Source: a virus
Virus record (IMG/VR): IMGVR_UViG_3300030116_004830
Span: 1-64,000 of that record
Reading direction: 5' to 3' (one strand)
Length of the DNA: 64,000 nt
A program made the position numbers and the translations under genes. The first letter of the stretch is position 1, and each line of letters begins with the position of its first letter. Below, piece by piece: positions 4,190 to 64,000 of the stretch. The notes beneath the pieces are model-generated. The model saw only the letters and a list, made by a program, of their open reading frames with translations, was not told where the DNA came from and ran no database searches.

Positions 4190-4428
4190 ATGACCACCAA
4201 GATAGTGAGAACTTTTCTTACAATAGGTCTTGGGAAGAAATAGAGAACATGCTTCATCAAGCAGAGCGTGAACAGAATGACTGTTATATGCAATTACAGA
4301 ATTGTAAGAGAAAAGACCGCATGTATTGGATGAGAAAATACAAGGGTCTTGAAGGAGTTATCAATGGACTAAGATGGGTCCTTGGTGACTTAAGAATGAA
4401 TAAAAGAAAGGTATTGGGGAGAGAATAA
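4186..4428 (+). CDS. Hypothetical coiled-coil protein, 80 aa
   Basis: This small helical protein contains WEEIENMLHQAEREQNDCYM and a basic C-terminal part (NGLRWVLGDLRMNKRK). Two ATGs four bases apart could serve as start. The spacing of aromatic and charged residues suggests a coiled coil. It lies just before the DNA ligase gene, which starts on its last base. Function is unknown. Confidence 0.55.
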   Translation: MNDHQDSENFSYNRSWEEIENMLHQAEREQNDCYMQLQNCKRKDRMYWMRKYKGLEGVINGLRWVLGDLRMNKRKVLGRE

Positions 4429-12844: not shown

Positions 12845-12845
12845 G

Positions 12846-14513
12846 ATGATAATTAGTTTTGTAGATTCAGATAAGACCATCAAGATTAGATGGAGAGATG
12901 AGAATAGAGAAAGAATGGAGAAATCAATTGAAGGCTTTAACCCTTATTTCTTTATTCGTTCTACAGATAAAAGACCTGAAACATACAAAACATCTCATAA
13001 GATTATAGGTGGTAAATCAGTTAAACAAACTGGATTCTATGAATACCAAACTGGTGATTACAAAAACCTACAAGGTCAATCTTTGACTAAGGTTTACTAT
13101 TCTAATCCTAAAGATAAATACAATGCAGTAAAACCATTTGTCGCTACATGGGAAGGAGATGTTCCTATCTGTCGTAGATATTGCGTAGATGAATTGGAGA
13201 ACGTCCCTGAATATGAGATGAGAAAATGGTATTGGGATATGGAATGGTTGCCTAAAGGCCACGAACATGAAGACGCTATTACTTGTATAGCAGTATATGA
13301 TAATTATACTAGTAAGAGTAAGTTATACACATGGTTTCCTGAACCCGAATTAGGAGAAAATAACGTCAAGTTTTCAGGATATTCGATTTACGATTCCGAA
13401 AAAGAAATGCTTGAATCATTCGTTAATGATTTACAAGAACAAGACCCTGATATGTTGATTGCTTGGTGGGGATTAAAATCAGACGTTCCACAATTGATTA
13501 AGAGAATGTTTGCTAACAAGATAGACCCAAGAAAGTTATCACCACATAAGGAAGTAAAGAATGTAGGATTCAATGCTTTAGGTAGTGTTGAGTATTCTAA
13601 CATTGAACAACCGATTCGTGGTAGGCTATGTTTGAATCTTGATTTGGCTTTTGAGAGGCAATGGATGGATGCTCAAAGAGGAACGCTACCAAGCAACTCA
13701 TTGGATTATTGTGCAAGTGTATCTGTTGGGGAAACTAAGAAGAAAGAATCTAAGTTTACTGATAGGAACGAATTTTTTAATCGAGCATGGTTAGAGGATA
13801 CTCAAAATTATCTTGAGTATTGTCTTCAAGATGCAGAGTTACTACATAAGATAGATGAAGAAATGGGATTGAGTGAAGGTGTATTGGCGGTTCAAAAAAT
13901 TGTGAAAGCACCGTTTGAAGATTGTTTCTTTGTTACCATGATTGCGGCCCCTTATTTCATGAGGAACGCCACATGGAAAGCCCCTACTGGAAAGAAAGGC
14001 GCTAAAGAGAAATACGATGGAGCAATGATTTACAATCCATTAGAAGAAGAAACAAATGGTTTACATCTAGGAGTTGCGGCTTTTGATTTTAGTTCGCTAT
14101 ATCCATCAGTTGCAGTAGCAAGAAATATCTCTTGGGAAACCAAATCCAATGAACCAACAGAGTTTGCAGTTAACATTAGAACACCTAGAAACCTAGGTGA
14201 AACTACTACTGAGGATTGGAGATATTACAAAACAGATGAACTCGGTCTACTACCAAAAATGATTCTAACTCTAAAGCCTCTTAGAAAACAATACAAGAGT
14301 AACATGTTAGAAGCATTACAAAATGGAAACAAGAAAGAATATGTTAAGTGGAACTCTATGCAAATGGCCACTAAAAGGTTACTAGCATCTCTATATGGAG
14401 CAACTGCCGCAGTAGGTTTTGGATGGTATGATTTAGATTTAGCCGCTAGTATTACTGCTAGTGCTAGAGAAGCAATTAGAGAAGCCGCATTTAAGGTGAG
14501 GGAATTAGAATGA
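12846..14513 (+). CDS. polB: DNA polymerase B, N-terminal part (exonuclease, palm motifs A and B)
   Basis: The 555-residue protein holds the proofreading exonuclease and the first half of the polymerase domain. Exo I is WDMEW (Asp131, Glu133), exo II lies in LIAWWGLKSD, exo III is YCLQD (Tyr325, Asp329). Polymerase motif A is DFSSLYPS (414-421); motif B is KRLLASLYG (510-518) with Ala for the usual Asn. The protein stops about 37 residues after motif B; motif C is in a separate gene at 14940. It begins one base after the PCNA stop. The two parts must associate to make an active enzyme. Confidence 0.93.
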   Translation: MIISFVDSDKTIKIRWRDENRERMEKSIEGFNPYFFIRSTDKRPETYKTSHKIIGGKSVKQTGFYEYQTGDYKNLQGQSLTKVYYSNPKDKYNAVKPFVATWEGDVPICRRYCVDELENVPEYEMRKWYWDMEWLPKGHEHEDAITCIAVYDNYTSKSKLYTWFPEPELGENNVKFSGYSIYDSEKEMLESFVNDLQEQDPDMLIAWWGLKSDVPQLIKRMFANKIDPRKLSPHKEVKNVGFNALGSVEYSNIEQPIRGRLCLNLDLAFERQWMDAQRGTLPSNSLDYCASVSVGETKKKESKFTDRNEFFNRAWLEDTQNYLEYCLQDAELLHKIDEEMGLSEGVLAVQKIVKAPFEDCFFVTMIAAPYFMRNATWKAPTGKKGAKEKYDGAMIYNPLEEETNGLHLGVAAFDFSSLYPSVAVARNISWETKSNEPTEFAVNIRTPRNLGETTTEDWRYYKTDELGLLPKMILTLKPLRKQYKSNMLEALQNGNKKEYVKWNSMQMATKRLLASLYGATAAVGFGWYDLDLAASITASAREAIREAAFKVRELE

Positions 14514-14827
14514 GATTAAATGATTATCAAGGATTAGCAAGAAAAACTGCCTTATACCCAATGGAGGAAGGTTTGACTTATACTGCATTAGGATTATGCG
14601 GAGAAGCAGGTGAAGTTGCTGAGAAAATTAAGAAGTTCATTAGAGGAGATGAAGGAGTTTCTGTTAGAGAAGATTTACTACTAGAATTAGGAGATGTTCT
14701 ATGGTATCTTTCTAATTTGGCTTTTGAATGTGGCTATACTCTACAAGCAGTAGCAGAGGCTAACATCGAAAAACTAGACAATAGAAAGAAAAATAATACT
14801 ATCAAAGGCAGTGGTGATAAAAGATGA
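14510..14827 (+). CDS. MazG-like NTP pyrophosphohydrolase
   Basis: The 105-residue protein matches the all-alpha MazG-like family: CGEAGEVAEKIKKFI followed by ELGDVLWYLSNLA supply the E-x-x-E and E-x-x-D metal-binding motifs. These enzymes hydrolyse nucleoside triphosphates to monophosphates and often occur in phages, where they alter nucleotide pools or alarmones. Unusually, it sits between the two halves of the DNA polymerase, overlapping the stop of the first half (ATGA). It may clean the dNTP pool, or be a passenger of the event that split the polymerase. Confidence 0.85.
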   Translation: MRLNDYQGLARKTALYPMEEGLTYTALGLCGEAGEVAEKIKKFIRGDEGVSVREDLLLELGDVLWYLSNLAFECGYTLQAVAEANIEKLDNRKKNNTIKGSGDKR

Positions 14828-14949
14828 ATAGAATGTTCAAATGTAAACATTGCAATAAAATTGGTATGTCTGAACATTACATGAGATGTGTCCATTGTTA
14901 TGCTACAATGTCTAAGGATGAACTAAAGGAGTTGATAAAATGCAAATAG
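14824..14949 (+). CDS. Zinc-ribbon miniprotein, 41 aa
   Basis: This short gene begins with an ATGA overlap after the MazG-like gene and ends inside the polymerase C-terminal gene. The product has two cysteine pairs, FKCKHCNKIG and MRCVHCYATM, typical of a zinc ribbon. It is conserved in layout as part of the insert that separates the polymerase halves. It could bridge the polymerase fragments or bind DNA; this is speculative. Confidence 0.6.
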   Translation: MNRMFKCKHCNKIGMSEHYMRCVHCYATMSKDELKELIKCK

Positions 14950-15869
14950 TTTACGCACATACAGATTCACTATATGTTCCCGTTCCCTCTATAGAGAAGG
15001 CACTAGAAGTTAGAGAGGTATTGAATGACCACATTCAAGAAAATGTATTTCCTAATATTATGGGTTTAGAAAATCATCCTATGGATTTAGAGTTTGAAAA
15101 ATATTATTCGGTCTTAGGAGTAGGAGCCACAAAGAATAGAAATGCAGGTTTTATCTCTTGGAAAGATGGAGTGCATTTACACGAACCTGAGTTTTTCGCT
15201 ACAGGGTTTTCATTGAAGAGAATTGCTGAATCTAAGATTGCAAAGGATACTCAGAAAGAAGTCATAGAGATGTGGGTTAAACAGAAAACGGAAGATGAGA
15301 TAACAGAAAGAGTCAGAAGTATTTTTACAGATGTCCTAGAAGGCAGAGTTGAGAAATTAGACCTTGTTAAAAGAAGTAGATATAAGGACGAAAGAAAATA
15401 TCTAAAATGCAGATGTAAAAGAAAATACGATGTAGAATACGTTAGAAAGTTACTTCGTATAGTTCCTGATGCGTTATGTGAAAACGATAATTGTAACGCT
15501 AGGCTATCGGAACTTACTACATTAGAAGGTAAAAGACCTTCCTTTGGTGGAGGGTTCGCAGGAGTATTGTATTACAATGAACATGTAAAACCTCAAGATA
15601 AAATTGATGATTCCTTTTATCATATGAAATGTAAATTCAATGGTATGGTTCAACCAAATACCTTTACTAACATAAAAGGTGAATCTAAATCTGCGGGTTA
15701 TATTGCAGTAAAGAACTTAAATGAACTAGAAAATTACGAACCCGACTGGCCCTCGTTAGCCGAATCGGAAGTTCTCAAAAAAGCCAAGCCCATTTACGAT
15801 GCAATGGGTTGGGATATTAACGAAGTAAGAAAAGACAAAAAACAAAAAGAATTGGATGAGTGGTTTTAA
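14940..15869 (+). CDS. polB: DNA polymerase B, C-terminal part (motif C, thumb, PIP box)
   Basis: The 309-residue protein starts almost directly with motif C, VYAHTDSLYV; family members normally have YxDTDS, so the first Asp is His here while the second (Asp9) is kept. The rest forms the palm end and thumb, with a cysteine cluster (KCRCKRKYD and LCENDNC). The C-terminus QKELDEWF is a good PCNA-interacting box, as in cellular archaeal PolB. GGAG precedes the ATG. With the gene at 12846 it would reconstitute a polymerase of about 864 residues. Confidence 0.9.
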   Translation: MQIVYAHTDSLYVPVPSIEKALEVREVLNDHIQENVFPNIMGLENHPMDLEFEKYYSVLGVGATKNRNAGFISWKDGVHLHEPEFFATGFSLKRIAESKIAKDTQKEVIEMWVKQKTEDEITERVRSIFTDVLEGRVEKLDLVKRSRYKDERKYLKCRCKRKYDVEYVRKLLRIVPDALCENDNCNARLSELTTLEGKRPSFGGGFAGVLYYNEHVKPQDKIDDSFYHMKCKFNGMVQPNTFTNIKGESKSAGYIAVKNLNELENYEPDWPSLAESEVLKKAKPIYDAMGWDINEVRKDKKQKELDEWF

Positions 15870-51763: not shown

Positions 51764-53116
51764 TCACTTCAAGTTGGTGATTTTTCCTTGTCCCTTAAAG
51801 AAGGTGCAACCAGTTTCACCCATTGTTCTGTAAAGACCTCTGTTACCTAGGACTCCAACACCGAATGGGTTTCCATGAGAAATACCGTCCTCAAAGTATT
51901 GGGTAGGCTTCATTGTAGCAAACCATAGATGGTCAGTGTCTAGCAATAGCATGTCGGATAGACCGCTTGTTGCCGCACCTGTCTTTGGCATGTCCTTACA
52001 AGGAATTAGAGGAATATCGTAGTATGTTGCAACTCTGAATCCAACTTCTGCACCCTTTACGCCCTTTACACCGTTATGGGTTGGAATAACTTCCTTAGCG
52101 TCCATGAATCTTTCTTGGCTCTGTAGCAAGTCAGACAATGCTTGAATGGTATCGTATCCAGTTAGGATAACCTTTGGAGTTCCACCATTCAATCTTAGGT
52201 TCTGAATAACATCGTTAATGATGCTTAGAGTTAGAACACGACCCGCAGTAGCGTAAGATGCACCGTAGTTAACAACCGAATCCATGAAAGATGCGCCTGT
52301 TGCTCTTGAGGTGTTACCGTAAAGAGTTGTTACATCAGCGTCTAGGTCAGCAATAGCAGATGAAACGCTTGAAAGCCTATCAAGTTCACCACCGCTATCG
52401 GACAACTCATCGTTACTGCTAACAATCTTCAATAGAGAAGTATAGTTTTCACGAATTCTTCCGCTTGAAGTATCTGCTCCAAGTGTATCGTAGTTCTCAA
52501 GAGGCATTACTAGCATAACCGACTGAGATTCTGCGTGGAATTTACCCATATCCTCACGAATGAGTTTACGAATATCTCCAACACCATCATCAATCTTAGC
52601 CATTTCAGCCGCAAGTTCGGAGTAATCGAACATATGAGCGACAATCTTTGGGTTCATGTATAGAGTGGTGTATTCAGGAGCAAGGGCTTCCAACTGTGTG
52701 CTATCCAATGCTTCGTTTTCACCGACACCACCGAGCAAATCTCCATCAGGAGTTTCTGAACCTTGAACACCACTTCCAGTAGTTGCACCTACAGCGAATG
52801 CCGCCGCACTTCCACCTTGAGGTCTGTTAATCATAACTCTCCAGCCGCTTGAAGTGTATGGCCTCTTAGGTAGAATAGATAGTGGGTTGATTTCTTGGTT
52901 AATCATTGACCAAACTTTCTGACCGTAAACCATGTTGTAAAGTGCAGTTAGGTTTGTTGCCGCAGTTCCGTTAAGAGTTAGTGCAGTGTCGGACGAACCA
53001 GTGAATCCACTGTTGATTCCGCCAACAATACCTGCCGCCTTCAAAAGGTTGTTTCCACCTACGTTACCATAGGTTGCTCTTTCCAAATCTTGAATTGTGT
53101 TAATGTATTTCGTCAT
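51764..53116 (-). CDS. Major capsid protein (HK97-type), 450 aa
   Basis: GGAG precedes ATG 53116 by 9 nt; an earlier in-frame ATG abuts it. The order protease/scaffold then this gene, the length, and an abundant-protein codon pattern support the HK97-fold capsid protein. Segments include NPLSILPKRPYTSSGWRVMI and a central EALAPEYTTLYMNPKIVAHM; the C-terminal part YFEDGISHGNPFGVGVLGNR is compatible with the P- and A-domains. The N-terminal region may be removed by the adjacent protease. Confidence 0.8.
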   Translation of the reverse strand: MTKYINTIQDLERATYGNVGGNNLLKAAGIVGGINSGFTGSSDTALTLNGTAATNLTALYNMVYGQKVWSMINQEINPLSILPKRPYTSSGWRVMINRPQGGSAAAFAVGATTGSGVQGSETPDGDLLGGVGENEALDSTQLEALAPEYTTLYMNPKIVAHMFDYSELAAEMAKIDDGVGDIRKLIREDMGKFHAESQSVMLVMPLENYDTLGADTSSGRIRENYTSLLKIVSSNDELSDSGGELDRLSSVSSAIADLDADVTTLYGNTSRATGASFMDSVVNYGASYATAGRVLTLSIINDVIQNLRLNGGTPKVILTGYDTIQALSDLLQSQERFMDAKEVIPTHNGVKGVKGAEVGFRVATYYDIPLIPCKDMPKTGAATSGLSDMLLLDTDHLWFATMKPTQYFEDGISHGNPFGVGVLGNRGLYRTMGETGCTFFKGQGKITNLK

Positions 53117-53149
53117 TTTTTTCATCTCCTTATTGTTTCTCTAATGGGA

Positions 53150-54655
53150 TTAGAGTTGTCCCTCCAATCTTTCAACTAGAGCGTTAATGTCGCTCCAATC
53201 CATCTTTGCGATTTCGTCACCATTAGGAATGTTAAGTTCTGCAACTGCTTCTTCTTGCTTACGAATTACAGTTTCTTCTTCTGCCTTTAGATTGTTAAGA
53301 AGGTCAGCGAATTGCTTTCTCAACTCAGTTACTTCTGCCTTAGCATCGTAGTTTGCCTTCTCAATTTCCTCGGTCTTAGCAACCATTTCAGAATTGAATC
53401 TTGCTTGGAATCCTTCCTTTACTTTATCAAAAGCCATCTTCTCAAGTTGTTCTGCCTTGAATTCAGCGTAAGCCTTCTCCAAGTTTTCAGCAGATAGGTC
53501 AAGAGTAGTTTGGTCTTCAAACTTAGCCATGTATTTGCTGTCCAATTGTGGATGAGCATCATCTACATATTCACCAGCGTTTCCTGCTTCTACTTGACCA
53601 GTAGCCAAATCAGGCTTTGACTTTCTTTCGGTATCCATGTATTCTCCACCCATACCTTTTTCGTCCATCATCTCTTTATCAGGCATATTAGGATTCATTG
53701 CTTCAACATCCTCTTCTGCGTTTTCAATTTCTTCTTCTTCTTTAGCAACCATTTCTGTTCCCTCGGATGTTTTCTGATTTTTCTCTATGTTCTTATTAAC
53801 GTTTTCTGCTGAATCCGTGTTTTCCATATCTTTCATAGCATTAAATTGGTCAACCATTTGTCTTAGTTCATCCTTTTCCATAATGCCTCTACCTAATACT
53901 CTTTCATATGGAGCCATCTCTACTTTACCAGTAGTGTTTTCCATATCTTCTTTCATAGCGTCAATTACATCTTTCTTCTTGTAATCCCCGCTAGTCAATA
54001 CTTCAAGGTATTGCATTTTTACTACGCTTTCATTATTGTATGCGGAATTTGCCGCATCCAACGTCTTGTTCAGTTCTTCTAGTGCTTTGCTTATTGCATT
54101 CATTTTATCACCTTTATCCATTTTTAGTATATCGAATTTTGCTTCAGGGTTAATACCCTTTTCACAAATCGTTACTTCATGGAGTTCTAATTTGGAGATT
54201 TCATTGTATTCTCCGTATTCTTTGTGGGTCTTCTTTCTCTTTTCTAAGGCTTGACCCCCAATACTAAATGAGCGTAGAGAACCATCTCTGATTTCTCTAC
54301 CAACCTCTTTTGCCTTTTCAATATCTTCTCTCATCTTAATGACGACAAAGAATCCAACATCGTCTACTTCTGTCTTGTAGAGTTTACCTGTCTTATCTCT
54401 GTAACTAGGAATAACTTCTCCTACTTGAACATTAGAATGATTAGTCATTACGTTTCTAAACTTCGTAATTTTCATGTATTTGTTTACTGCTTCTTGTAGT
54501 GCATCAAGAGTAATAAGGTCGTTTTGCTTATCTACCATTTCAATAGAAGCATAACCTCCAATGACTAAGTTATTGGATTTAAGGATGGTAAAGGGGTCAT
54601 TTCTAATAGCGTTGATAGAAGTGACCGCACTACCCATGCGTGATACTTTTTTCAC
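53150..54655 (-). CDS. Prohead protease (XkdF-like) fused to scaffold, 501 aa
   Basis: Residues about 30-170 match the XkdF/prohead-protease type: VIGGYASIEMVDKQNDLI, the catalytic His in TNHSNVQVGEV and Ser in GSLRSFSIGG, followed by ELHEVTICEKGINPEA. The remaining 330 residues are acidic, Met- and coiled-coil-rich, as expected for a scaffold. The C-terminus AKMDWSDINALVERLEG resembles that of the protein at 57734 and the N-termini of several small proteins upstream. The GTG start has a weak ribosome site; an ATG six codons later is possible. Confidence 0.82.
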   Translation of the reverse strand: MKKVSRMGSAVTSINAIRNDPFTILKSNNLVIGGYASIEMVDKQNDLITLDALQEAVNKYMKITKFRNVMTNHSNVQVGEVIPSYRDKTGKLYKTEVDDVGFFVVIKMREDIEKAKEVGREIRDGSLRSFSIGGQALEKRKKTHKEYGEYNEISKLELHEVTICEKGINPEAKFDILKMDKGDKMNAISKALEELNKTLDAANSAYNNESVVKMQYLEVLTSGDYKKKDVIDAMKEDMENTTGKVEMAPYERVLGRGIMEKDELRQMVDQFNAMKDMENTDSAENVNKNIEKNQKTSEGTEMVAKEEEEIENAEEDVEAMNPNMPDKEMMDEKGMGGEYMDTERKSKPDLATGQVEAGNAGEYVDDAHPQLDSKYMAKFEDQTTLDLSAENLEKAYAEFKAEQLEKMAFDKVKEGFQARFNSEMVAKTEEIEKANYDAKAEVTELRKQFADLLNNLKAEEETVIRKQEEAVAELNIPNGDEIAKMDWSDINALVERLEGQL

Positions 54656-54675
54656 AATTTCTATATTAGGTTTGC

Positions 54676-57159
54676 CTAGAATTTTAATTTAGAATCCTTA
54701 TCTTCTCTAATATCCCATAGTCCGTCATCAGTTTCAGGGTCCACAGGTTTCTGTTCTATTCCAGTCCAAGCAAGCCACTTATCTTCGCCCTTTATCGGTA
54801 TAACTCTAACATGAAATTTAGTATCGAATTTATTTCCAGTTAAAATGTATTCATGATAACCATGACGCTGAACCCCTAACTCTACTTTTCCTGAATCTAT
54901 GAGTTTACCCGTTTCTATTTTCGTTACAACTTGTGCAGGGTATTTGCCTGATTTACCGAATAGAGTAAAGATGTCGTCTTCGTTTTCTATCTCTATATCC
55001 CAACCAATAGTTTCGTCTGATAATTTGAATAAGATAGAAAGATGACCGTTATCTTTGTAGTAGATTTTGAAATCACCATTACGGTATTCATCAGGGGTTT
55101 TATATTTTGATTTTAAAATGTCCTTTTCTAAAATATCAGGTTCAGCAAAAAATAATTTCTCTTCTTCATTGTAACCAATGTCTTCTAGATTCTTTAGATA
55201 ATTCTTCAATCTTGTAGGTTTACTATCAAAGATATTGTTGTAAGGGGTTTTCTGTTTCTCATTAACGAACTGTTCTATCTTAGAAAACGGAGATTCGCCA
55301 TTCTCTAAAAGATAATTTCTTATTGATACTCTAAATGCTCCCTTTTCTCTTTTAATCAGTTCTTCTATTTCTGTTTTCCAAACGTCAATATCAAGTAATG
55401 CATTCTTAGCCATTATATTATTTTCTTCAAAACCATAGAAAGTAAACCCATCTAAATCAGATTTAATGATAGCAGTAGCATCACCATGAATAGTATCGCT
55501 TATACGAAATCCTTTCTCTAATGCTTCTATATCATAATTAAGAGATTTCTTAGTATCTTGAGATAATAGGTCTAAAGTGATTAATTTTTCAGGAAGTTCA
55601 ACTTCGGGTATTTCTATTACTTTAGCCGAAAAGAGCGTGTATCCCTTTTCGTTTTTCTTTACTTCATCTATCTTTACACGAATAATACTTCCAACTTCAA
55701 CATCTATTTTTGTATTTAACGCCTTACCAACATTAAGATATTCTCTATCGTTAATTGTCTTAGTGTCCGAATAATTATCTTTATCTGTTAATGGTCCTGC
55801 CCCTAAAGTATAGGTAAACATATTTGATTTAGTGGTTTTCTTATCTAAAACCATCATATCTAAATCTACAAACTTTTTCCATTTAATCCATTTAGGGTTT
55901 TTCTTAGTTCCTATAAAGTAAGTGGAAGTTACATCTTTTATTACTACCCCTTCAGCAGTAGGAATCTCCATAATTTCTTTTGCATATTCTTCCACTTCTT
56001 TCACAGAATCAGCATAACGAGTATCCTTCTTAGAAGGGAACGCTAACTTTTCATGGGAATGTGTAGAATAATTATTGAATAGAATAGTCATTCTTTCTAT
56101 GAGTTCTTTCTCATGTAACTCCTCACTTTCATGTCGCATTATGTCGAACACATGCGCTCTTAATTCTGTATCAGATTTTTTGTCCTTAAAAATTCTAGCA
56201 ACTACCTCTGCTCGGTGTAGGGCTTCCTTACCTTTGAATAATAGAAGTTCAGCATCGAGGATACAATCTCCAAAATGCTTGGCTTTCATCACCTTAACTT
56301 GTTCAGGACATTTCTTGGTAATGTCCTTACCGTTGAAAGAAAATATCTTGATTTGATTATCTATCTTATGAATTTGAATTCTCATTCCATCATACTTTTC
56401 TTGGACTACCCATTTACCAGTAAATCCTCTTAACTGTTCTAAGTCATCAATATCGAATATACGATACATCGGTTTGTTAGGAACCAAGAAATGTTCTTCC
56501 GCCTTCATCGCCTTTTCTAGGCTAACCGTCTTATCCCAATTTTTACGGCTATGATGGTTCACAAATATTTCTTCTAACAATTTCTTAGCGCCTAAATATT
56601 TACCTTTGATTCTTTTTGTGTCTTTATCGTCACCATAATGTTCGACCACAAAATCTAGAATATCCTTTTCAGCAAGGTTTAGTCCCTTGAATCCCTCTGT
56701 AATACTATCGGGTTCCAAATCATTCTTTTCCCATGCCTCATCACTAAGGGCTTTATCGTGGTTTCTCATAGCCCAGTGAATAAATTTAGCAAATAGAGAT
56801 TCGTTTTCTATTAGTTCATCTAATACATCTTCACCATATTTAGTAGAGAATGGGTCCTTTACAATACCCGATGAATATCTCAATTCTTTAACTTGAGAAT
56901 ATATTTTTCTAGCATCATCACTTTCTACGTTTTCTGCCTCATCAGAGAACAGTTCCTTTTCATTAATTATTTCTTTAATCTCTTTACTGAACTCATCAAT
57001 GTCGTCCCATTGTTCTCTAAGTGTTTTAATTTCGCCTATCCATTTATCGCCGTATCTTTTCTTATCTGATAAAGCAGACAAGTAAGACATTCTCATTTTT
57101 TCAAAGAATTGAATTACTCTAAGGGTTAGAGGGTCATCTTTGATAACGGAAACAGGCAC
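54676..57159 (-). CDS. Large ATP-dependent DNA ligase in head module, 827 aa
   Basis: The nucleotidyltransferase core is complete: motif I EKYDGMR with Lys255, motif III DAELLLF, motif IV EGVVIKD, motif V WIKWKK, followed by an OB-fold (GSIIRVKIDEVKK). It has about 240 residues before the core and about 260 unassigned residues after it. The N-terminal KDDPLTLRVIQFF resembles RNDPFTILK in the prohead protease and NDPFIMLK at 59287. A GTG start follows GGTGAT. Its place between small head genes and the protease suggests that it acts on packaged or injected DNA and not in replication. Confidence 0.85.
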   Translation of the reverse strand: MPVSVIKDDPLTLRVIQFFEKMRMSYLSALSDKKRYGDKWIGEIKTLREQWDDIDEFSKEIKEIINEKELFSDEAENVESDDARKIYSQVKELRYSSGIVKDPFSTKYGEDVLDELIENESLFAKFIHWAMRNHDKALSDEAWEKNDLEPDSITEGFKGLNLAEKDILDFVVEHYGDDKDTKRIKGKYLGAKKLLEEIFVNHHSRKNWDKTVSLEKAMKAEEHFLVPNKPMYRIFDIDDLEQLRGFTGKWVVQEKYDGMRIQIHKIDNQIKIFSFNGKDITKKCPEQVKVMKAKHFGDCILDAELLLFKGKEALHRAEVVARIFKDKKSDTELRAHVFDIMRHESEELHEKELIERMTILFNNYSTHSHEKLAFPSKKDTRYADSVKEVEEYAKEIMEIPTAEGVVIKDVTSTYFIGTKKNPKWIKWKKFVDLDMMVLDKKTTKSNMFTYTLGAGPLTDKDNYSDTKTINDREYLNVGKALNTKIDVEVGSIIRVKIDEVKKNEKGYTLFSAKVIEIPEVELPEKLITLDLLSQDTKKSLNYDIEALEKGFRISDTIHGDATAIIKSDLDGFTFYGFEENNIMAKNALLDIDVWKTEIEELIKREKGAFRVSIRNYLLENGESPFSKIEQFVNEKQKTPYNNIFDSKPTRLKNYLKNLEDIGYNEEEKLFFAEPDILEKDILKSKYKTPDEYRNGDFKIYYKDNGHLSILFKLSDETIGWDIEIENEDDIFTLFGKSGKYPAQVVTKIETGKLIDSGKVELGVQRHGYHEYILTGNKFDTKFHVRVIPIKGEDKWLAWTGIEQKPVDPETDDGLWDIREDKDSKLKF

Positions 57160-57169
57160 ACAGAATCAC

Positions 57170-57355
57170 CTACTTCTTTTTGTTAGCCCCTGCGTAATGC
57201 CTTTTACCAGCCTTTACGCTTTGGCCTTTAGCCTCATCAGAAAGATGACCTACTCCCAAGGGCTTAGTTTTATCCTTTTCACCTTTGGTTCTCTTGAGTT
57301 TCATTTCTTCGCCAATGACGAATTTCATTAGTTTTTCAGTGTATTCAGTGGTCAT
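57170..57355 (-). CDS. Small basic protein, 61 aa
   Basis: GGAGGG precedes the ATG, which overlaps the upstream stop. The product is Lys/Gly-rich (KLKRTKGEKDKTKPLGVGHL and a KAGKRHYAGANKKK ending), compatible with a DNA-binding internal head protein. It is not recognised. Confidence 0.5.
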   Translation of the reverse strand: MTTEYTEKLMKFVIGEEMKLKRTKGEKDKTKPLGVGHLSDEAKGQSVKAGKRHYAGANKKK

Positions 57356-57732
57356 TTTGGTCCCTCCTTTATTGCTATTGCTTCAATTCCGTCAAAACTT
57401 GTATTTCTAATAGTCCAGCCTTCAGCACGATATATATCGGAAATTATTTGAAGAATGTATGACCTATTCCGACCGAGTTTATCTTGCCCGTCTTGTCCCA
57501 TAAGATAAAATGGAGAATTGTTATTGGACAATCCCGTTTTATCTGCTGGTTCATTTCTAAAACCAATATATGTTTCTTTTCCTTCTAGCGCTGGTTGCGC
57601 TTGAACCAACGCTACTAATTTAGGTTCAATTACTGATTTCTCATACTCAGTAATCGCTTGTTTATGGTCTTCATCTCTAGCGGTCCTAGTGCCTAGGGGC
57701 ATAGGCATTTTCAAAATATCTTTCCAATTCAT
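57352..57732 (-). CDS. Trp-motif head-region protein, 126 aa
   Basis: The protein starts MNWKDILKM, one of five proteins in this block opening with M-[NST]-W-[KE]-D-[IVM]-[LI]. The rest contains GFRNEPADKTGLSNNNSPFY and a C-terminal alpha/beta part (SYILQIISDIYRAEGWTIRN). GGAGAG precedes the ATG. Body function is unknown; see the finding on the shared motif. Confidence 0.55.
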   Translation of the reverse strand: MNWKDILKMPMPLGTRTARDEDHKQAITEYEKSVIEPKLVALVQAQPALEGKETYIGFRNEPADKTGLSNNNSPFYLMGQDGQDKLGRNRSYILQIISDIYRAEGWTIRNTSFDGIEAIAIKEGPK

Positions 57733-57733
57733 T

Positions 57734-57970
57734 TTACTCTCCTCCTAATCTTGCTACTAAGTCATTAATTTCATCCCAACTCATCTTAGCAATTGTATCT
57801 GAATCAGGAACATCACTATGAGTTCTGATTGCAGGAGTTGGCGAGTCCACAGTAACAATACCCGACTTAACTAAGATATTATCATTGTTATAAACTGTAT
57901 TTTCTATTTTCTTAATTCTACCTACTAATTCCTTTAGCAGGTCTACCATTTCATTATTCTCTTCCGTCAT
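57734..57970 (-). CDS. Head-region protein with C-terminal Trp motif, 78 aa
   Basis: An N-terminal coiled coil (MVDLLKELVGRIKKIENTVY) and a linker precede a C-terminus TIAKMSWDEINDLVARLGGE. The last 18 residues closely match the C-terminus of the prohead protease/scaffold (EIAKMDWSDINALVERLEG). This suggests a shared docking site, perhaps on capsid protein or scaffold. Its stop and start overlap its neighbours. Confidence 0.6.
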   Translation of the reverse strand: MTEENNEMVDLLKELVGRIKKIENTVYNNDNILVKSGIVTVDSPTPAIRTHSDVPDSDTIAKMSWDEINDLVARLGGE

Positions 57971-58311
57971 TATTCATCATCCCTTAAACTTCTAGCGCTC
58001 TTTGGATATACTACTTTTCTTACTTGGCGATACAACTGTTCGTATTGCTTACGAAGTTTGCTGGCAGTAGCGACCATATCAACATTCTGTTCACTGATGG
58101 ACTTTACTTTCTTTTGTAGTTTAGAGTCATCCTTCACCAAATCTAGTTCACTCATCATATCAATGAGTTCTCCTAACTTGGTAAAATCCTGACCAAAATA
58201 CTCTGTAGGTTCAGCCGCTTGGAGTGTCTTTTTGAGTTTCTTTTTCTTCTTAGAATCAAGAGCATTGAGGATTTTGCTTTCCTCTTTGATTAGCATATCT
58301 TCCCAAGTCAT
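57970..58311 (-). CDS. Trp-motif head-region protein, 113 aa
   Basis: Starts MTWEDMLIKEE, then a Lys-rich helix (LDSKKKKKLKKTLQAAEP) and a C-terminal coiled coil rich in Arg and Lys. The basic helical body suits DNA binding inside the head, but this is inference. It is one of the family sharing the N-terminal Trp motif. Confidence 0.55.
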   Translation of the reverse strand: MTWEDMLIKEESKILNALDSKKKKKLKKTLQAAEPTEYFGQDFTKLGELIDMMSELDLVKDDSKLQKKVKSISEQNVDMVATASKLRKQYEQLYRQVRKVVYPKSARSLRDDE

Positions 58312-58312
58312 A

Positions 58313-58963
58313 TTAATCCCTATATCCTAATGACCTTGCATTTGCGGCAAATCTATGACCCGCCATTTCTCCTCTAAACTCCCTTTGTTCTTCTTCGGAC
58401 ATATCGCCCCAATCTTCTTCATATTGAGCATATTCCTTGAAGGCCTTCAAAATAGCCTGAACAAAATCTCTTACGCCCTGTCTACTATTATCCCATCCTT
58501 TGAGGTCAATCTTAACATCAATTTTCTTTTTGCCTCCTTGGGTAGCCAACTCAATATCATGTATCTTGAAACTATTAATAGCGAGTCGACCATAATCAGG
58601 ATTTCTTGGATTATAGTATAAATCATAATTATCGGGCAAATACCTGATAGTCATTTTATCTGAACCAAAACCTTGACGATAAGCATAAGGTTCATCCATA
58701 TCGGTAATAATTAATTCGTGGCCAAAGGTTTCTTGTCCATAAGAGCCGTCATAATCTTCCATTTCTTCATCAGACAAAGTAGTAAATTCTCGATATTTCA
58801 TTTTCTTCTTATCTTTTTCAGTCATCCAAGACATATTCTCATAGTGGTCGCTATATTTAATCTCAAAACCTAATGCCTCTAAACTACTAATTACTTGGTC
58901 GCCAAATTCACTAATCTTCATATTGCTTAAATTGTCGTATTTCAAAATATCTTTCCAACTCAT
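58313..58963 (-). CDS. Trp-motif head-region protein, 216 aa
   Basis: The start at 58963 follows GAGGTG by 6 nt, giving MSWKDILKYDN; the longer frame lacks a ribosome site. The body is an alpha/beta domain (FGHELIITDMDEPYAYRQGF, KKIDVKIDLKGWDNSRQG) ending in a Glu/Arg-rich helix. It is not recognised. Confidence 0.55.
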   Translation of the reverse strand: MSWKDILKYDNLSNMKISEFGDQVISSLEALGFEIKYSDHYENMSWMTEKDKKKMKYREFTTLSDEEMEDYDGSYGQETFGHELIITDMDEPYAYRQGFGSDKMTIRYLPDNYDLYYNPRNPDYGRLAINSFKIHDIELATQGGKKKIDVKIDLKGWDNSRQGVRDFVQAILKAFKEYAQYEEDWGDMSEEEQREFRGEMAGHRFAANARSLGYRD

Positions 58964-58964
58964 T

Positions 58965-59285
58965 TTAAGCACCTCTATATCTATAATCATAACTGTAATT
59001 ATCCGACTCTTTATCTGATTGAACTCTTCTTAAATTCTTTTTAGATAAGAAAAACCATGAAGATGCATTCATATTTCCATCCATATTTCCTTCATCTATC
59101 CCTAATGGTTTAGCAATTTCTCTTGCTATTTTCCAACTTGTTCTAGGTAAAACAAAATCTACTTTCTCTTCAGGATATTGTTCCCGATACTTTTCAGAAA
59201 CAACTTTCACACCATTTTTTGATTTTTTCCATGCTTCACGAATAGCATCATAATCGTTACTTTTTAGTATATCTTCCCAAGTCAT
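58965..59285 (-). CDS. Trp-motif head-region protein, 106 aa
   Basis: Starts MTWEDILKSNDYDAIREAW after GGAG. The middle is basic, and the C-terminus is Tyr/Arg/Asp-rich (SDKESDNYSYDYRYRGA). No domain is recognised. Its start region is nearly identical at DNA level to that of the 58313-58963 gene, suggesting duplication of a short leader. Confidence 0.55.
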   Translation of the reverse strand: MTWEDILKSNDYDAIREAWKKSKNGVKVVSEKYREQYPEEKVDFVLPRTSWKIAREIAKPLGIDEGNMDGNMNASSWFFLSKKNLRRVQSDKESDNYSYDYRYRGA

Positions 59286-59286
59286 T

Positions 59287-60366
59287 TTAATTTCTCCTAA
59301 TTGTTTTACCTGCCATTAAATCCTCTAACTCTTGTCTTTCCCTTTCTGCTTGGGCTTCTCTTTCTTCAAAGGTTAGACCTTCTTCTTGTCTAGAGGGTCT
59401 TTCGGTTTCTCTTTCTTCAATGGCCCTTCTCATTGCCGCATCTTCAGCAGTTGCTAAATCCATAAGAACATCTCTTCCTCTTGTAGTAACCATATACCAA
59501 ATATCATTTCTTGCATTTAGAATATCTCTCTGCTGTTTAATATCCGCCAAGGTTACACCAGTGTTTTGTGAATAAGCATAAAGTAAAGCATCAATAAAAG
59601 GCTCTTTGATTCTACCCTTTGTATGATGATTAAATTCAATAGGTTCATTCAAAAGATTGTAAACTTTTTGTCTCAATTTCTTAATATCAGATTGAGGCAT
59701 ACGAGCAGTTTTTTCTGCATATATAGGTGATGCCGTTTCTCTAAGTTCAGCAACATCGTATTTATTCTTAATAACTTCAGATAGGTTTCTTTCAAATCTA
59801 TCATCGTGAATAAAATCTCCATCGAAATCTAATTTAGCATCTTGTAATGCATCCCTAAGTTCAGTTAATTTATCAATTCCCCTTTCTAGTTGTTTATCTT
59901 CCTTAACCCTAGAAAAGGTAGCGCCTTTCCCTGCTCCCTGTGTAACCTTTTGTTTGGGAGTTTTCTGAGAATCCATAATATCAGATAGTAAATCTTGAAG
60001 CCCCGTCATAATTGGTTTCATGATAGTAGGTTCAATTTCACTCCCTTTGATAGCATTAAGCAATGCTCTAACATTAGATTCTCTTACACTAGCAAAATAA
60101 GGGTCATTACTTTGTTTACCCTCTTTTATTCCTAGTAGCAGTGACTTTGGGGAACCCAGTTTATTCATATCAGTTTCACTGTCTAGTAGATTTTCAATAG
60201 CAGTAAATAATTGATTAGACATCTTAGGTTGATTAGTCCTTTGCATACTCTGAAGAAGTTCTCTCCAAGATTTACCGTCCTGTTTTAGAATATCTTCTAA
60301 ATAGCACTTCAACATAATGAACGGGTCATTAGTTTTCAGAAGTTTTGCCTTTAGAAGTGTTCCCAT
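59287..60366 (-). CDS. Hypothetical head-region protein, 359 aa
   Basis: The N-terminus has TNDPFIMLKCYLEDILKQDG followed by KSWRELLQ, combining the NDPF-type motif of the prohead protease and ligase with a degenerate Trp-motif. The rest is helical, with an Arg/Glu-rich C-terminus. GAGGCG precedes the ATG. It is the largest member of the cluster and is not otherwise recognised. Confidence 0.55.
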   Translation of the reverse strand: MGTLLKAKLLKTNDPFIMLKCYLEDILKQDGKSWRELLQSMQRTNQPKMSNQLFTAIENLLDSETDMNKLGSPKSLLLGIKEGKQSNDPYFASVRESNVRALLNAIKGSEIEPTIMKPIMTGLQDLLSDIMDSQKTPKQKVTQGAGKGATFSRVKEDKQLERGIDKLTELRDALQDAKLDFDGDFIHDDRFERNLSEVIKNKYDVAELRETASPIYAEKTARMPQSDIKKLRQKVYNLLNEPIEFNHHTKGRIKEPFIDALLYAYSQNTGVTLADIKQQRDILNARNDIWYMVTTRGRDVLMDLATAEDAAMRRAIEERETERPSRQEEGLTFEEREAQAERERQELEDLMAGKTIRRN

Positions 60367-60375
60367 GTTATCGCC

Positions 60376-60597
60376 TCAAAAGAACGGAATGTTTTCTTTC
60401 TTTAGTTTCTTTCTCTTAGGATTATGAATAACATTAGGAACATCAGCAGTTTTAGGTTCAGGCCTATCCTTTTCCTTCTTTAGTTGCATAGGAGTTAGAA
60501 CAGGTTTCGACTCTCTTGCTTTTTCTTTCTGCGCTAGAATCCTTTCGGCCCTAACAAGTTCCTTTCTCATTTTATTTGTTTCTTCTCTTGTAACCAT
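60376..60597 (-). CDS. Small basic protein, 73 aa
   Basis: The ATG at 60597 is 6 nt after GGTG. The product is a charged helix followed by a Pro/Lys-rich tail ending KKENIPFF. It is unrelated in sequence to the Trp-motif proteins on either side. A head-internal DNA-binding role is possible but not shown. Confidence 0.45.
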   Translation of the reverse strand: MVTREETNKMRKELVRAERILAQKEKARESKPVLTPMQLKKEKDRPEPKTADVPNVIHNPKRKKLKKENIPFF

Positions 60598-60602
60598 ATT
60601 AT

Positions 60603-60803
60603 TCACCTATTTGCTATTTTTTCCATCATATCTATTAATTCGCCTTCTAATTCAGGGGCAGAATAATGTCTTTCTAACAATTTATTCATAGCCATCATTT
60701 TCAATTTCTCATATTTAGGTAAATGCATCAATTCAGAATCTAATTCACCAACATAATCAAATTTCTCTTTCTTTATTACATCTTCCCAATTCATATCATC
60801 CAA
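60603..60803 (-). CDS. Trp-motif head-region protein, about 63-66 aa
   Basis: Two starts are possible; the one at 60794 gives MNWEDVIKKEKFDYVGEL, in register with the family motif, and an ATG nine bases earlier is closer to GGAGAG. The body is a single helical region. It overlaps the portal gene and is the first of the Trp-motif genes in transcription order. Confidence 0.55.
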   Translation of the reverse strand: MDDMNWEDVIKKEKFDYVGELDSELMHLPKYEKLKMMAMNKLLERHYSAPELEGELIDMMEKIANR

Positions 60804-62454
60804 CTCTCCTTTCAGTCCTTCTATCTACGTTATTGTTAGCCGCTTCCTTGGGTAAGCCTGTAGCCCGATTAGGTGGCCCTACACTCATCTTAGGTTTAGG
60901 ACTTGCGCCTTTTACCTTAGCAGGTTGCCCTGCTTGTTCCATTGTTGGTTTAGTTCCAGCCTCCATCATTTGACCTAATTGTGATTGGTCAATATCTGTT
61001 CCCGCATAAGGGTCAGATTCAAACTTTTCATCTTCTGATTGTCCTTCTCCTTCTGCTTCGGGTTGGGGTTCAGGTTTCTTGTAAATGAACTTACCATTTT
61101 CATCCATATCAACTTCAAATCCTAAATTTTTAATTTGACCAGCAATATTAACTTCAATTTCTCTTTTTCTCATTTTAGCAATTTCATCCTCTTCTTCGGA
61201 AGGTGGTAGAATTATATCCCAGTCAGTAATACCGAACTGCTTAATCACAAACGGGAACACATATTTGTTCCATACATTTTGAGCCATTTCTACAGCCCTA
61301 TTGGTAACAAGTATTTGCATACCTTCATTGTTTAATCCACCACTGGTAGAATTATCCGCCATGAAGATTTTACTTACACCATAGAAAGCGGCGACTCTAT
61401 CTCTCAAATCTTCCTTAACAGAAATATAATCCATTTCCTTTAGAGAATCCATGAACTTAACCCATTCAACAGAACCTCTACCGTTTTCTGCTTCTATTCC
61501 CATTACAGGAATAAAGTGAGCATCCTGTTCCATCTTTTCTTTAACGCCTCTCCAAAAGGTCTTCATCGAATCTATGTTTCTTGTTTGAACAGCCAGTAAA
61601 CCTCTAGGCATTCTAGCCTTTGTATATGCTTGATTAATATAATTCTCCATAGCAATTAATGTAGTTAGATGATTAAACATTGTAATGACTGGACTAGTTC
61701 CATAGAGCCTACTTGGTTTATATTTGCTAAAGTGTAAAACCTCTCCTTTAATGAAATTCTGAGCCTCCCCATGTCCTCTGTTTACATAATGAACAGGATA
61801 CAAATCTCCTCCACATTCCCCACATTTCTCATGAGGATTATCTGCCATTACATGTCTATGGTGTAAACAAGTAAACGATGAAGCCCCTTTGTTACCATCA
61901 TCATCACAAGTAATAGCCATAGTAACTGGGTCGCCACGATACATTTCTTTGATTCTATGCGCTCTAATATTTCCATTACCATCAATGAAATATTCCTTGA
62001 CTAGAACTAAGTAAGCATCATCCATAATATTGAGGTCATCTTCTAATTCCTTTAGAACATCAATAAACATCTGTTCCGATTGATTAACATAACTACTGCC
62101 CATGAATTTATTAGCATACAATTTTTGTTTCATATCAGGTTTTCTTAAATTAGTAGAACCGCAATTTGCACATTCATTAGTTGTCTCTTCGTGTTCATGT
62201 CCACAATCATTACACTTTACTGCAAATCTAGGACTCCACTCATAGCCTCTTCTAAAAATTTCATTCTTTAATTGAGTAATACAAGTCCTAAGAATAACTG
62301 AACTATCAGCAATATGATAGATGATAGGTCCAGTCATCTGCAAAGGATGATGTCTTTCTTGTATCCCCATTTGGTAAACTTCTCTATCAGCAGGAACAGG
62401 AGTTGTTCTCCTAAAGAAATTAGTAATAGAAAATCTTCTTTTTTCTTCTACCAT
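60796..62454 (-). CDS. Portal protein with zinc ribbons, 552 aa
   Basis: Position directly after the terminase-linked gene, length, and sequences such as YHIADSSVILRTCITQLKNE, GEVLHFSKYKPSRLYGTSPV and FYGVSKIFMADNSTSGG identify the portal. Unusually, two cysteine sites are embedded: CNDCGHEHEETTNECANCG (Cys81, 84, 95, 98) and a second around CLHHRH ... CGECGG near residue 200. The C-terminal 90 residues are a Pro/Gln/Glu-rich tail. Portals form the dodecameric DNA gate and bind the terminase. Confidence 0.85.
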   Translation of the reverse strand: MVEEKRRFSITNFFRRTTPVPADREVYQMGIQERHHPLQMTGPIIYHIADSSVILRTCITQLKNEIFRRGYEWSPRFAVKCNDCGHEHEETTNECANCGSTNLRKPDMKQKLYANKFMGSSYVNQSEQMFIDVLKELEDDLNIMDDAYLVLVKEYFIDGNGNIRAHRIKEMYRGDPVTMAITCDDDGNKGASSFTCLHHRHVMADNPHEKCGECGGDLYPVHYVNRGHGEAQNFIKGEVLHFSKYKPSRLYGTSPVITMFNHLTTLIAMENYINQAYTKARMPRGLLAVQTRNIDSMKTFWRGVKEKMEQDAHFIPVMGIEAENGRGSVEWVKFMDSLKEMDYISVKEDLRDRVAAFYGVSKIFMADNSTSGGLNNEGMQILVTNRAVEMAQNVWNKYVFPFVIKQFGITDWDIILPPSEEEDEIAKMRKREIEVNIAGQIKNLGFEVDMDENGKFIYKKPEPQPEAEGEGQSEDEKFESDPYAGTDIDQSQLGQMMEAGTKPTMEQAGQPAKVKGASPKPKMSVGPPNRATGLPKEAANNNVDRRTERRVG

Positions 62455-63827
62455 TATTCCTCACTCCCTTTGGATATGACGCTTCCTATATTTTCTAATT
62501 CATCCATAACACTCATTTTATTATTCTCCTTATACTTAGCGATATTTTCCACATCTATGTCGTCCTTTGAAAAATCATAATTAACGTGGTCGGCATGATT
62601 AGCCCACTTCATTAACTTGAATAACTCCGACATTCTTTCTTTGGCCCAAGGTTCCTTCTTATGATTTTTCTTAATTCTAATCAATTCAGTTAGAATATCA
62701 GCGTTCTCCCCTTTCATTCTAAAGTAGGGGCGACATTTGCTTAATAATTTAGTAATATCATCTTGGGAATAAAAATTCAATCTTTGAACGGCCCTAGTTG
62801 CCTGTGGAGATTTTTGGTCGAGATGTAATTTTCCACAACCTAATTCCTTATGGAGTTCAGTAACGAATGCTTTGCCTCTATTACCTGTAGCAATAATACC
62901 AATTCTAGGATTATAGTTTCTATCCATCGTGATATACCCGTCCGAATCAATAAATGCCGCAGTATAAGCATGAAGGTCTTTGATAATAGCATCGGGTAAT
63001 TTATACAATTCACCTTCGATATTAGTGATTCCCAACCTTTGCGCCCTTTTAGCAATAATTTGAGGAGATGCCCTTCGATGTAATTTATTGGGTAATTTCT
63101 CATAAACTAATCTAGAAGAAATACTTGGGTTTTCACATACCTGTTTTAGAATATTATCATCTAACTGTTTAGAGATATTATTTTTGATAGTATGATTTGG
63201 AATATCAGTTACTAGTTTTCTAAATTCCTTTTTGGCATTAGTCATTGTTTTTGTTAATGAAGAATATTCAGAATTGTAATTATCTCCTCTATGTAATTCG
63301 GCTTCCCAATATTTACACAAAGCATCTATTACCTCTCTTCTTGTATCTAAATCCTTAACTGAATGAAGTTTCTTTAAATCATTCTCAGTATATCGCATGT
63401 TTCTTAATGGGGTTTCATATGGAGATAACCAATAAATAGATTTGATACAATTACTTAGATGATTACCATACTGAACGATTAGATTATCAATGCCTTTCGT
63501 GAAATTTATTTTTTCTTCACCCTTTAGGGTTCTCCTATGTTTTTTTAATTCTTTAACAATATCAGGTATCGTTTTATTTTCGATGACGTATTGTTTTGGA
63601 AAAGTATCTAATTTTGCTTTAGCCTCTGTGATATTGATGTTGTATTTTTTCGATACACTCATAGCGGCTTCATAATCGCTCATTACAGGTAAAGTGGAAA
63701 TCCATTTTTGTGCTTCCATTTGTTCTTTGATAGATTGCTTACGGTCTTCTAATTCGGCTAACTCCTCATGTTGTCTTGCCTGTTCTCGGAGTTTATCTCC
63801 CTCTTCACTTTTAGAAATTAAGCCCAA
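62454..63827 (-). CDS. LAGLIDADG-domain protein between terminase and portal, 457 aa
   Basis: The likely start is a TTG at 63827, 7 nt after GGAGGT, inside the terminase 3' end. Residues 1-280 are helical with a DNA-binding-like region (RRASPQIIAKRAQRLGI). Around 287-300 lies AYTAAFIDSDGYITMDR, a LAGLIDADG motif with its acidic residue, followed by IGIIATGNRGKAFVTELHKE and LNFYSQDDITKLLSK, the typical order of the fold. Only one motif is evident, so it may act as a dimer. It could be a homing endonuclease or a domesticated packaging factor. Confidence 0.65.
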   Translation of the reverse strand: MGLISKSEEGDKLREQARQHEELAELEDRKQSIKEQMEAQKWISTLPVMSDYEAAMSVSKKYNINITEAKAKLDTFPKQYVIENKTIPDIVKELKKHRRTLKGEEKINFTKGIDNLIVQYGNHLSNCIKSIYWLSPYETPLRNMRYTENDLKKLHSVKDLDTRREVIDALCKYWEAELHRGDNYNSEYSSLTKTMTNAKKEFRKLVTDIPNHTIKNNISKQLDDNILKQVCENPSISSRLVYEKLPNKLHRRASPQIIAKRAQRLGITNIEGELYKLPDAIIKDLHAYTAAFIDSDGYITMDRNYNPRIGIIATGNRGKAFVTELHKELGCGKLHLDQKSPQATRAVQRLNFYSQDDITKLLSKCRPYFRMKGENADILTELIRIKKNHKKEPWAKERMSELFKLMKWANHADHVNYDFSKDDIDVENIAKYKENNKMSVMDELENIGSVISKGSEE

Positions 63828-64000
63828 ACATTCCACCTCCCATAAATTGCGCCTGTGGTTGCTCGTTATCAAAGATTTCCATATCGTCTAGTAATATAAA
63901 TGATTCAAGCATATCGTGAGTTGCTGAATTTGCAAGAGCAAGTCCCATAACTAAATCATCGTGAGCGCCCACGCCTTCAAACTTGCCTTTGTCCGTAATA
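63811..64000 (-). CDS. terL: Terminase large subunit, C-terminus (partial)
   Basis: The last 62 residues of a gene running off the right edge read ITDKGKFEGVGAHDDLVMGL and onward to GGGMFGLNF. The H-D-D-L-hydrophobic-M-x-L-A-L-A segment is the final metal-binding element of the terminase nuclease domain (RNase H-like). The subunit packages DNA into proheads and cuts the concatemer. Its 3' end overlaps the next gene by 17 bases. Most of the gene lies outside the window. Confidence 0.85.
   Translation of the reverse strand, partial: ITDKGKFEGVGAHDDLVMGLALANSATHDMLESFILLDDMEIFDNEQPQAQFMGGGMFGLNF

Follow-up and report, generated by a model that had tools for sequence, protein, structure and literature searches.

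Encapsulins load unrelated cargo proteins through short peptides that bind the inside of an HK97-fold shell, and as a rule these cargo-loading peptides lie at the C-terminus and serve a single cargo or a few. Here we describe a short N-terminal tag on late proteins of IMG/VR virus record IMGVR_UViG_3300030116_004830, whose bases 1-64000, out of a record length of 87,650 bases (87.65 kb), form the window that was analysed. Judged from sequence, the tag is probably a capsid-loading signal of magrovirus-like archaeal tailed viruses, in which cargo proteins would copy the anchor of the scaffold. Signals of related kinds have been described in several systems. The internal proteins of phage T4 are diverse and share an N-terminal signal, the capsid-targeting sequence (CTS), of which 10 residues suffice and in which residues 4 and 7 drive targeting (PMC9026906); the T4 cargo proteins differ between related phages (PMC9026906; PMC3012670). 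In giant phages such as SPN3US, much longer propeptides are thought to act in the same way (PMC5694885), and P1 DarB has an N-terminal signal that brings the protein, or a reporter attached to it, into the phage head (PMC9024508). The C-terminus of the herpesvirus protease-scaffold binds the capsid protein (PMC12474303), and CpmB of SaPI1 uses the binding sites of the phage 80alpha scaffold on the capsid protein (PMC12810830). The words "motif" and "scaffold" do not occur in the excerpted text of the magrovirus paper (PMC10160649), and our literature searches on the tag sequences, on capsid targeting in archaeal tailed viruses and on tags of Poseidoniales viruses found nothing.

The tag described here has the eight-residue consensus M-[STN]-W-x-[DE]-[IV]-[LI]-K. 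Like the CTS of T4 IPI, IPII and IPIII, it is N-terminal and about 8-10 residues long, with an aromatic residue followed three residues on by a hydrophobic one; T4 IPIII starts with MKTYQEFIAEA, and the spacing of its Y4 and F7 is like that of W3 and I6 of the tag. Both signals are common to otherwise diverse accessory (here putative) head proteins that are unconserved between related phages. They differ in that there is no sequence relationship between them, in that each genome here has 5 to 24 tagged genes (eleven genomes, relaxed pattern), clustered around the packaging and head genes, and in that the T4 prohead protease removes the signal whereas no cleavage site is visible after the magrovirus-like tag. 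A copy of the signal on the end of the scaffold, as found here, is not described for T4 in the excerpted sources. We regard the two signals as convergent and claim no homology. P1 DarB is alike in having an N-terminal head-packaging signal, but according to the excerpt the N-termini of the P1 Dar proteins are without consensus, whereas here one motif stands on about a hundred families. The herpesvirus UL26/UL26.5 type likewise has protease and scaffold in one chain, which ends here in a conserved short motif; cargo that copies this tail is not described in the herpesvirus excerpt, and in the present case the motif may bind the capsid protein by analogy. SaPI1 CpmB is similar as a second protein occupying scaffold sites, but it resizes the capsid, whereas the mimicry proposed here would load cargo. 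The encapsulin peptides resemble the tag as short peptides on unrelated cargo and differ in their usual position.

Tag copies in the window

The first-pass annotation of this DNA had pointed to five otherwise different proteins with a common tryptophan-containing start. All five N-termini are present, at minus-strand ATGs at 57732 (MNWKDIL), 58311 (MTWEDML), 58963 (MSWKDIL), 59285 (MTWEDIL) and 60794 (MNWEDVI), and a six-frame scan of all 64 kb finds the pattern W[KE]D[IVML][LIVM] five times, exactly at these N-termini. A relative of the motif had also been reported at the C-termini of two proteins and is borne out: the prohead protease at 53150-54655 ends with AKMDWSDINALVERLEGQL and the protein of 78 amino acids (aa) at 57734-57970 with AKMSWDEINDLVARLGGE. 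These features are given below, with the occurrence of relatives of each tagged body in 80 related loci. The loci were gathered with the portal protein as query and are the best 80 of 166 confirmed, near-identical pairs included.

60603..60794, minus strand: tagged accessory protein, MNWEDVIKKEKF; tag codons 60771-60794; body relatives in 0/80 loci
58965..59285, minus strand: tagged accessory protein, 106 aa, MTWEDILKSNDY; tag 59262-59285; body relatives in 0/80 loci
58313..58963, minus strand: tagged accessory protein, 216 aa from the ATG at 58963, MSWKDILKYDNL; tag 58940-58963; body relatives in 0/80 loci
57970..58311, minus strand: core tagged protein, 113 aa, MTWEDMLIKEES; tag 58288-58311; body relatives in 78/80 loci
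57734..57970, minus strand: small core protein, 78 aa; C-terminal motif MSWDEINDLV starts at 57784
57352..57732, minus strand: tagged accessory protein, 126 aa, MNWKDILKMPMP; tag 57709-57732; body relatives in 2/80 loci
53150..54655, minus strand: prohead protease (Peptidase_S78) and scaffold-like region; C-terminal motif MDWSDINALVERL starts at 53203

A degenerate sixth copy had been proposed for the protein at 59287-60366. We rejected it, as neither its own N-terminus (MGTLLKAKLLKTNDPFIMLKC) nor the starts shown for its relatives (10/80 loci) have the W motif. The statement that all tagged genes lie between the portal and capsid genes holds inside the window and fails in the full record, where further tagged genes begin past the window at ATGs at 66166, 66372, 66868 and 67224, with one more near 67.6 kb; judged by gene order, these are upstream of the terminase.

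Tagged late genes in related genomes

Eleven related genomes were read in pieces, with 1,250 bases of one missing. They contain the strict tag pattern at 102 places, 100 of which are on the late strand. Among genes predicted by a simple greedy open reading frame (ORF) caller made for this analysis, the relaxed tag stands at the start of 126 of the 756 on the late strand and of none of the 735 on the other. The tag is carried by 124 of the 467 late genes that lie upstream of the capsid gene and by 2 of the 289 downstream of it, where the tail genes lie; these two (in G004 and G011) appear genuine and alike. The tagged genes occupy about 35 kb upstream of the capsid gene. Judged by gene position, the tag is carried by proteins that would be made with the head, as is the T4 signal. 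A motif scattered outside the head genes of relatives, which would have spoken against the annotation's idea, was not what we saw: its copies are limited to late genes and cluster upstream of the capsid gene. Across 81 loci (the 80 relatives and the window's own, near-identical loci counted separately), M.W.[DE][IVLM] in open frames occurs 318 times on the gene-sense strand and once on the other.

The annotation had proposed scanning related genomes for the same tag on non-homologous proteins, and the scan yielded 191 distinct N-tagged proteins with a median length of 102 residues, a set that excludes L001 (the window again), hits within 25 residues of a C-terminus and four internal hits. When the first 12 residues are removed and the bodies are compared by blastp (E < 1e-4), they form 97 families, 66 of them single-member; because of this threshold, distant body families may be over-split. 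Aligned with one another, the 97 family representatives agree at MxWxDILK only, with M1 and W3 invariant, K8 in 90% or more and a mean column identity of 4%. The tag is thus a short conserved N-terminal sequence on otherwise unrelated proteins. Among the 191 proteins, position 2 is S, T or N in 147, position 5 is D or E in all (the pattern requires D/E), position 6 is I or V in 183 and position 8 is K in 173. Some tagged families have altered tags such as MSWKNILK and MTTWQEILK, and one protein (L013:591-842) begins with two consecutive tags (MSWQDILKIDITMNWQDVIK). We take the tag to be a capped amphipathic helix, with M and S/T/N/D before the helix and D/E as the capping box; presumably W and I/V, three residues apart, lie on one helix face, and the series M, S/T/D/N, W, x, D/E, I would match a capping box with a hydrophobic staple. 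No clear pattern was seen between an aromatic residue at tag position 4 and the end motif of the protease. NDPFxxLK, found at the starts of the protease and of a 359-aa protein, was considered as a second shared motif and dropped, since a scan found it at few loci only.

The tag behaves as a module separable from the body that follows it. In the core 113-aa protein, found at 78/80 loci, nearly all copies keep an N-terminal M-x(0-2)-W, and in L011, L013, L014 and L064 there are inserts between tag and body while the tag stays N-terminal. The insert in L011, L013 and L014 holds an EF-hand-like loop (DxDGDG); one further tagged family matches EF-hand weakly. A structural model of the core protein predicts a helical body, with a confidence of >90 for most of it, and gives the tag low confidence (58 for residues 1-10); fold searches with this model returned nothing at E <= 0.001 in PDB or BFVD. 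The other tagged bodies of the window have few relatives or none (0, 0, 0 and 2 of 80 loci), and the ligase-like protein, the protease and the small protein have relatives in 77-78 of 80. Across the eleven genomes, the median number of other genomes (out of 10) with relatives is 0 for tagged late genes, 5 for untagged upstream late genes and 10 for tail genes.

Relatives of two basic tagged families occur in marine bacterial phages. Those of family 27 come from 61 records, with about 50-71% identity among the matches listed (the query was the protein without its last 10 residues, tag included), and those of family 2 from 17 records at 54-81% identity. In the magrovirus copies of both families the tag stands directly before the shared body. 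Eight bacterial-phage N-termini were read directly (P12053L, CRP-5 and CRP-13 for family 27; HMO-2011, HTVC115P, MEP402, CRP-1 and CRP-13 for family 2), and the tag is present in 0/8. Tagged bodies that bacterial phages carry untagged are the nearest natural analogy to a signal placed on a foreign protein. Family 2 starts with MSWQDILKKKKKSKVNQAGNYTKPGMRK in the magrovirus and with MSTKKKSTVNKAGNYTKPGMRK in pelagiphage HTVC115P; family 27 starts with MTWFEVLKKKGKHPALKRAGVSG in the magrovirus and with MAKKDPRLERAGVSG in roseophage CRP-5. In P12053L the aligned W comes directly after a stop, upstream of the annotated start.

The C-terminal motif of the protease-scaffold and the small protein

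Peptidase_S78 covers residues 30-179 of the 501 residues of the prohead protease, and the middle part of the chain would be the scaffold. The protease is present in 77/80 loci, with 71 complete copies and six that reach a contig end. All 71 complete copies end in [MVL]xWx[DE][IVL], and the M of the motif is retained in 68 of them, though there is no start codon there. The small protein, present in 78/80 loci, has the C-terminus MxWx[DEQ]I in 78/78, and its M63 (again not a start codon), W65 and I68 are invariant. Its alignment has a heptad-like N-terminal helix, a conserved SG-V-SPTP stretch and a linker of variable length, followed by the motif; in its predicted structure a loop separates two helices, 3-26 and 65-76, the second of which begins at W65. 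The two C-terminal motifs of one genome are identical at 4.84 of 8 positions on average vs 4.33 when shuffled (shuffled maximum 4.79), a comparison from which the relatedness of the loci was not removed. The residue after I is N in both motifs at 19 loci, H in both at 36 and mixed at 16, of 71. These C-termini lend support to the earlier suggestion of a tag common to cargo and scaffold, and they give the single protease-scaffold chain a conserved terminal motif.

Distribution of the tag in virus and cellular genomes

At the DNA level, exact matching to a pattern that encodes roughly M[ST]W[KEQ]DI[LF]K finds at least 119 IMG/VR stretches; a control pattern with the same codons in reversed order finds 4. 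For 87 of the 119 stretches listed, proteins of the eleven genomes match one quarter or more of the length. We checked 28 records, namely those of 27 of the 32 low-similarity stretches and that of L157, and 14 of them hold the capsid protein, the portal or both. As for the 14 records without either, 12 show one tag, G037 shows 5 and G039 shows 2. In 257 Gb of cellular genomes the pattern hits 52 scattered stretches with one match each, and no Poseidoniales-titled record is among them.

Proposed mechanism and alternative explanations

Support for a shared targeting motif is strong, and support for capsid loading is good. A capsid-loading signal is the best reading because the motif is terminal and common to the protease-scaffold, a coiled-coil protein of the head module and about a hundred accessory late families, and because it is absent from early genes and nearly absent from tail genes. 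In the mechanism that we propose, the protease-scaffold and the small coiled-coil protein would anchor through their C-terminal motif to the inside of the shell as it assembles, with the major capsid protein as the most probable binding site. N-tagged late proteins would bind to sites of this same type, or to the growing core, and become trapped in the prohead as cargo that could be delivered with the DNA, and the protease would then remove the scaffold. Any gene that gained eight residues would become cargo, and this would explain a large and fast-changing cargo set. Encapsidation, ejection and any cleavage of the tagged proteins are steps that we infer, and the major capsid protein as receptor is our favoured guess; the core or the portal could take its place. 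The most far-reaching form of the proposal, with the scaffold, the coiled-coil linker and about a hundred cargo families using one helix code and one inner-capsid pocket, and with any acquired gene convertible to cargo, has in our view a little less than an even chance of being right. The interpretation offered in the first-pass annotation is partly supported.

Several observations weigh against a capsid-loading signal of this kind. No residue past K8 is conserved in the 97-row alignment that could mark a cleavage site. Family libraries recognise a function for few tagged proteins: of the 97 families, one is named PAP2, two DUF1540, one EF-hand and one HExxH metalloprotease. Only 39/78 copies of the core 113-aa protein fit the relaxed tag pattern; MTWDYYNDG and MSWQYTLQK are examples of its variants. 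The N-terminal motif and the C-terminal one have only M-x-W-x-[DE]-[IV] in common and continue with LK in the former and [HN]xxV in the latter, which makes a single receptor for both less than certain. The serine of codon 2 is encoded by AGT in 89% of 47 tagged vs 56% of 131 untagged genes, and some tags may as a result share recent DNA descent. Finally, HVTV-1, HCTV-1, vir335 and vir519, related haloarchaeal and methanogen viruses of the same capsid lineage, have no such tag at the listed gene starts of the head region.

The alternative closest to our reading is a variant of it, in which the tag does load cargo but binds to the core of the scaffold, to the small coiled-coil protein or to the portal vertex rather than to the shell protein. 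The internal proteins of T4 bind the core, according to the excerpt (PMC9026906), and the genes of the small coiled-coil protein and the core 113-aa protein adjoin in the window, each with relatives in 78/80 loci. Such a receptor would, however, leave the motif on the scaffold and on the coiled-coil protein itself unexplained, unless these two bind each other through it, and we consider this variant unlikely, though well worth keeping in mind.

An N-terminal amphipathic helix rich in W, I, L and K is also the typical look of short membrane anchors. The tag might accordingly be a localisation helix for a target other than the capsid interior, such as the cell membrane, a host factor or a site of replication or assembly, and the tagged proteins, which are accessory and varied as expected of host-directed late proteins, would then act in the infected cell. 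However, the same helix start ends 71/71 protease-scaffolds and 78/78 small head-module proteins, and the conserved D/E and the restriction to the packaging and head block fit a head-specific partner better. We therefore give this explanation a small probability, clearly below that of a core or portal receptor.

The codon 2 bias would suit a third explanation, that the motif has no role at the protein level and reflects gene starts, in which recombination copied a shared ribosome-binding and start region along with the genes. The remaining tag codons are nevertheless synonymously variable (all six Leu codons, GAT/GAC, GAA/GAG and AAA/AAG), the DNA upstream of tagged genes is non-uniform, with one of four strong Shine-Dalgarno cores in 69/191, and the motif is found at C-termini as well, at places that have no start codon. 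As the main explanation it was rejected, and we regard it as very improbable. Descent of the tagged proteins as full-length relatives from one duplicated gene, the outcome against which the annotation had warned, is the least probable of all and was likewise rejected: some families are multi-copy within a genome (related genes close to an end of record G004 are an example), but the bodies fall into 97 families, 66 of them single, that align in the tag only, and two bodies have close relatives in bacterial phages.

Source virus and neighbouring genes

The label of magrovirus-like archaeal tailed virus is based on the gene content of this record. Pfam identifies a group II chaperonin and a two-piece family-B DNA polymerase in the window, which also has ORFs that by inspection resemble the RFC small subunit and PCNA, and a portal, an S78 prohead protease and an HK97-type capsid protein. 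The record, at about 90 kb, thus has the combination of archaeal-type replication genes and tailed-virus head genes seen in magroviruses. The nearest named relatives of the portal and capsid proteins are those of the haloarchaeal viruses HVTV-1, HCTV-1, HCTV-5 and kin and of two methanogen viruses, at 23-29% identity. Three further genes of the head module are as follows.

60796..62454, minus strand: portal protein (PHROG 18178 / Phage_portal); untagged; query for the related loci
54676..57159, minus strand: ATP-dependent DNA ligase-domain protein, 827 aa; conserved (relatives in 77/80 loci), within the head module, untagged
51764..53125, minus strand: major capsid protein (PHROG 24667 / SU10_MCP); favoured candidate for the motif receptor

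Besides this ligase-domain protein, a second ligase-like ORF lies among the early genes at 4428-5963 (by inspection). The family-B DNA polymerase is split over two ORFs at 12822-15869, with PF00136 in both, and a MazG-like frame lies between them (by inspection). Between the terminase end and the portal, at 62454-63872, there is a 472-aa protein with a stretch that looks LAGLIDADG-like by eye; a Pfam scan of this protein gave no match. It is unlikely to be a passing homing endonuclease, because relatives occur in 74/80 loci.

Three observations were made outside the window. In HVTV-1 (genes 113, 115 and 116) and HCTV-1 (genes 106 and 109), proteins of the head module have in common RVY[VI]-x-x-x-x-EAP-x-x-V at one end, often followed by GG-YY; this stretch may be a separate head-protein tag or domain of the haloarchaeal group. 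The record of L157 (184,733 bases) carries the capsid gene and the portal twice each, some 91 kb apart, and is probably a head-to-tail assembly of two related virus genomes. The late strand near the far end of the record from which L082 comes encodes an HMGL-like enzyme of the aldolase family (PF00682, E 2.7e-25; L082:11953-12804; record 75450-76304).

Significance

We know of no capsid-targeting code described for archaeal viruses, and the literature that we searched holds none. If the capsid-loading reading is true, sequence alone would predict which proteins, 5-24 per genome, enter the heads of an abundant but uncultured marine virus group, and the tagged proteins, most of them without known function, would be candidates for delivery into Marine Group II archaea at infection. 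One motif would then link the anchoring of the scaffold with the loading of cargo, and the tag would be a small transferable element for loading proteins into an HK97-fold shell. Under the mimicry model, acquired genes, even ones in common with bacterial phages, could become packaged and delivered cargo by the addition of eight residues.

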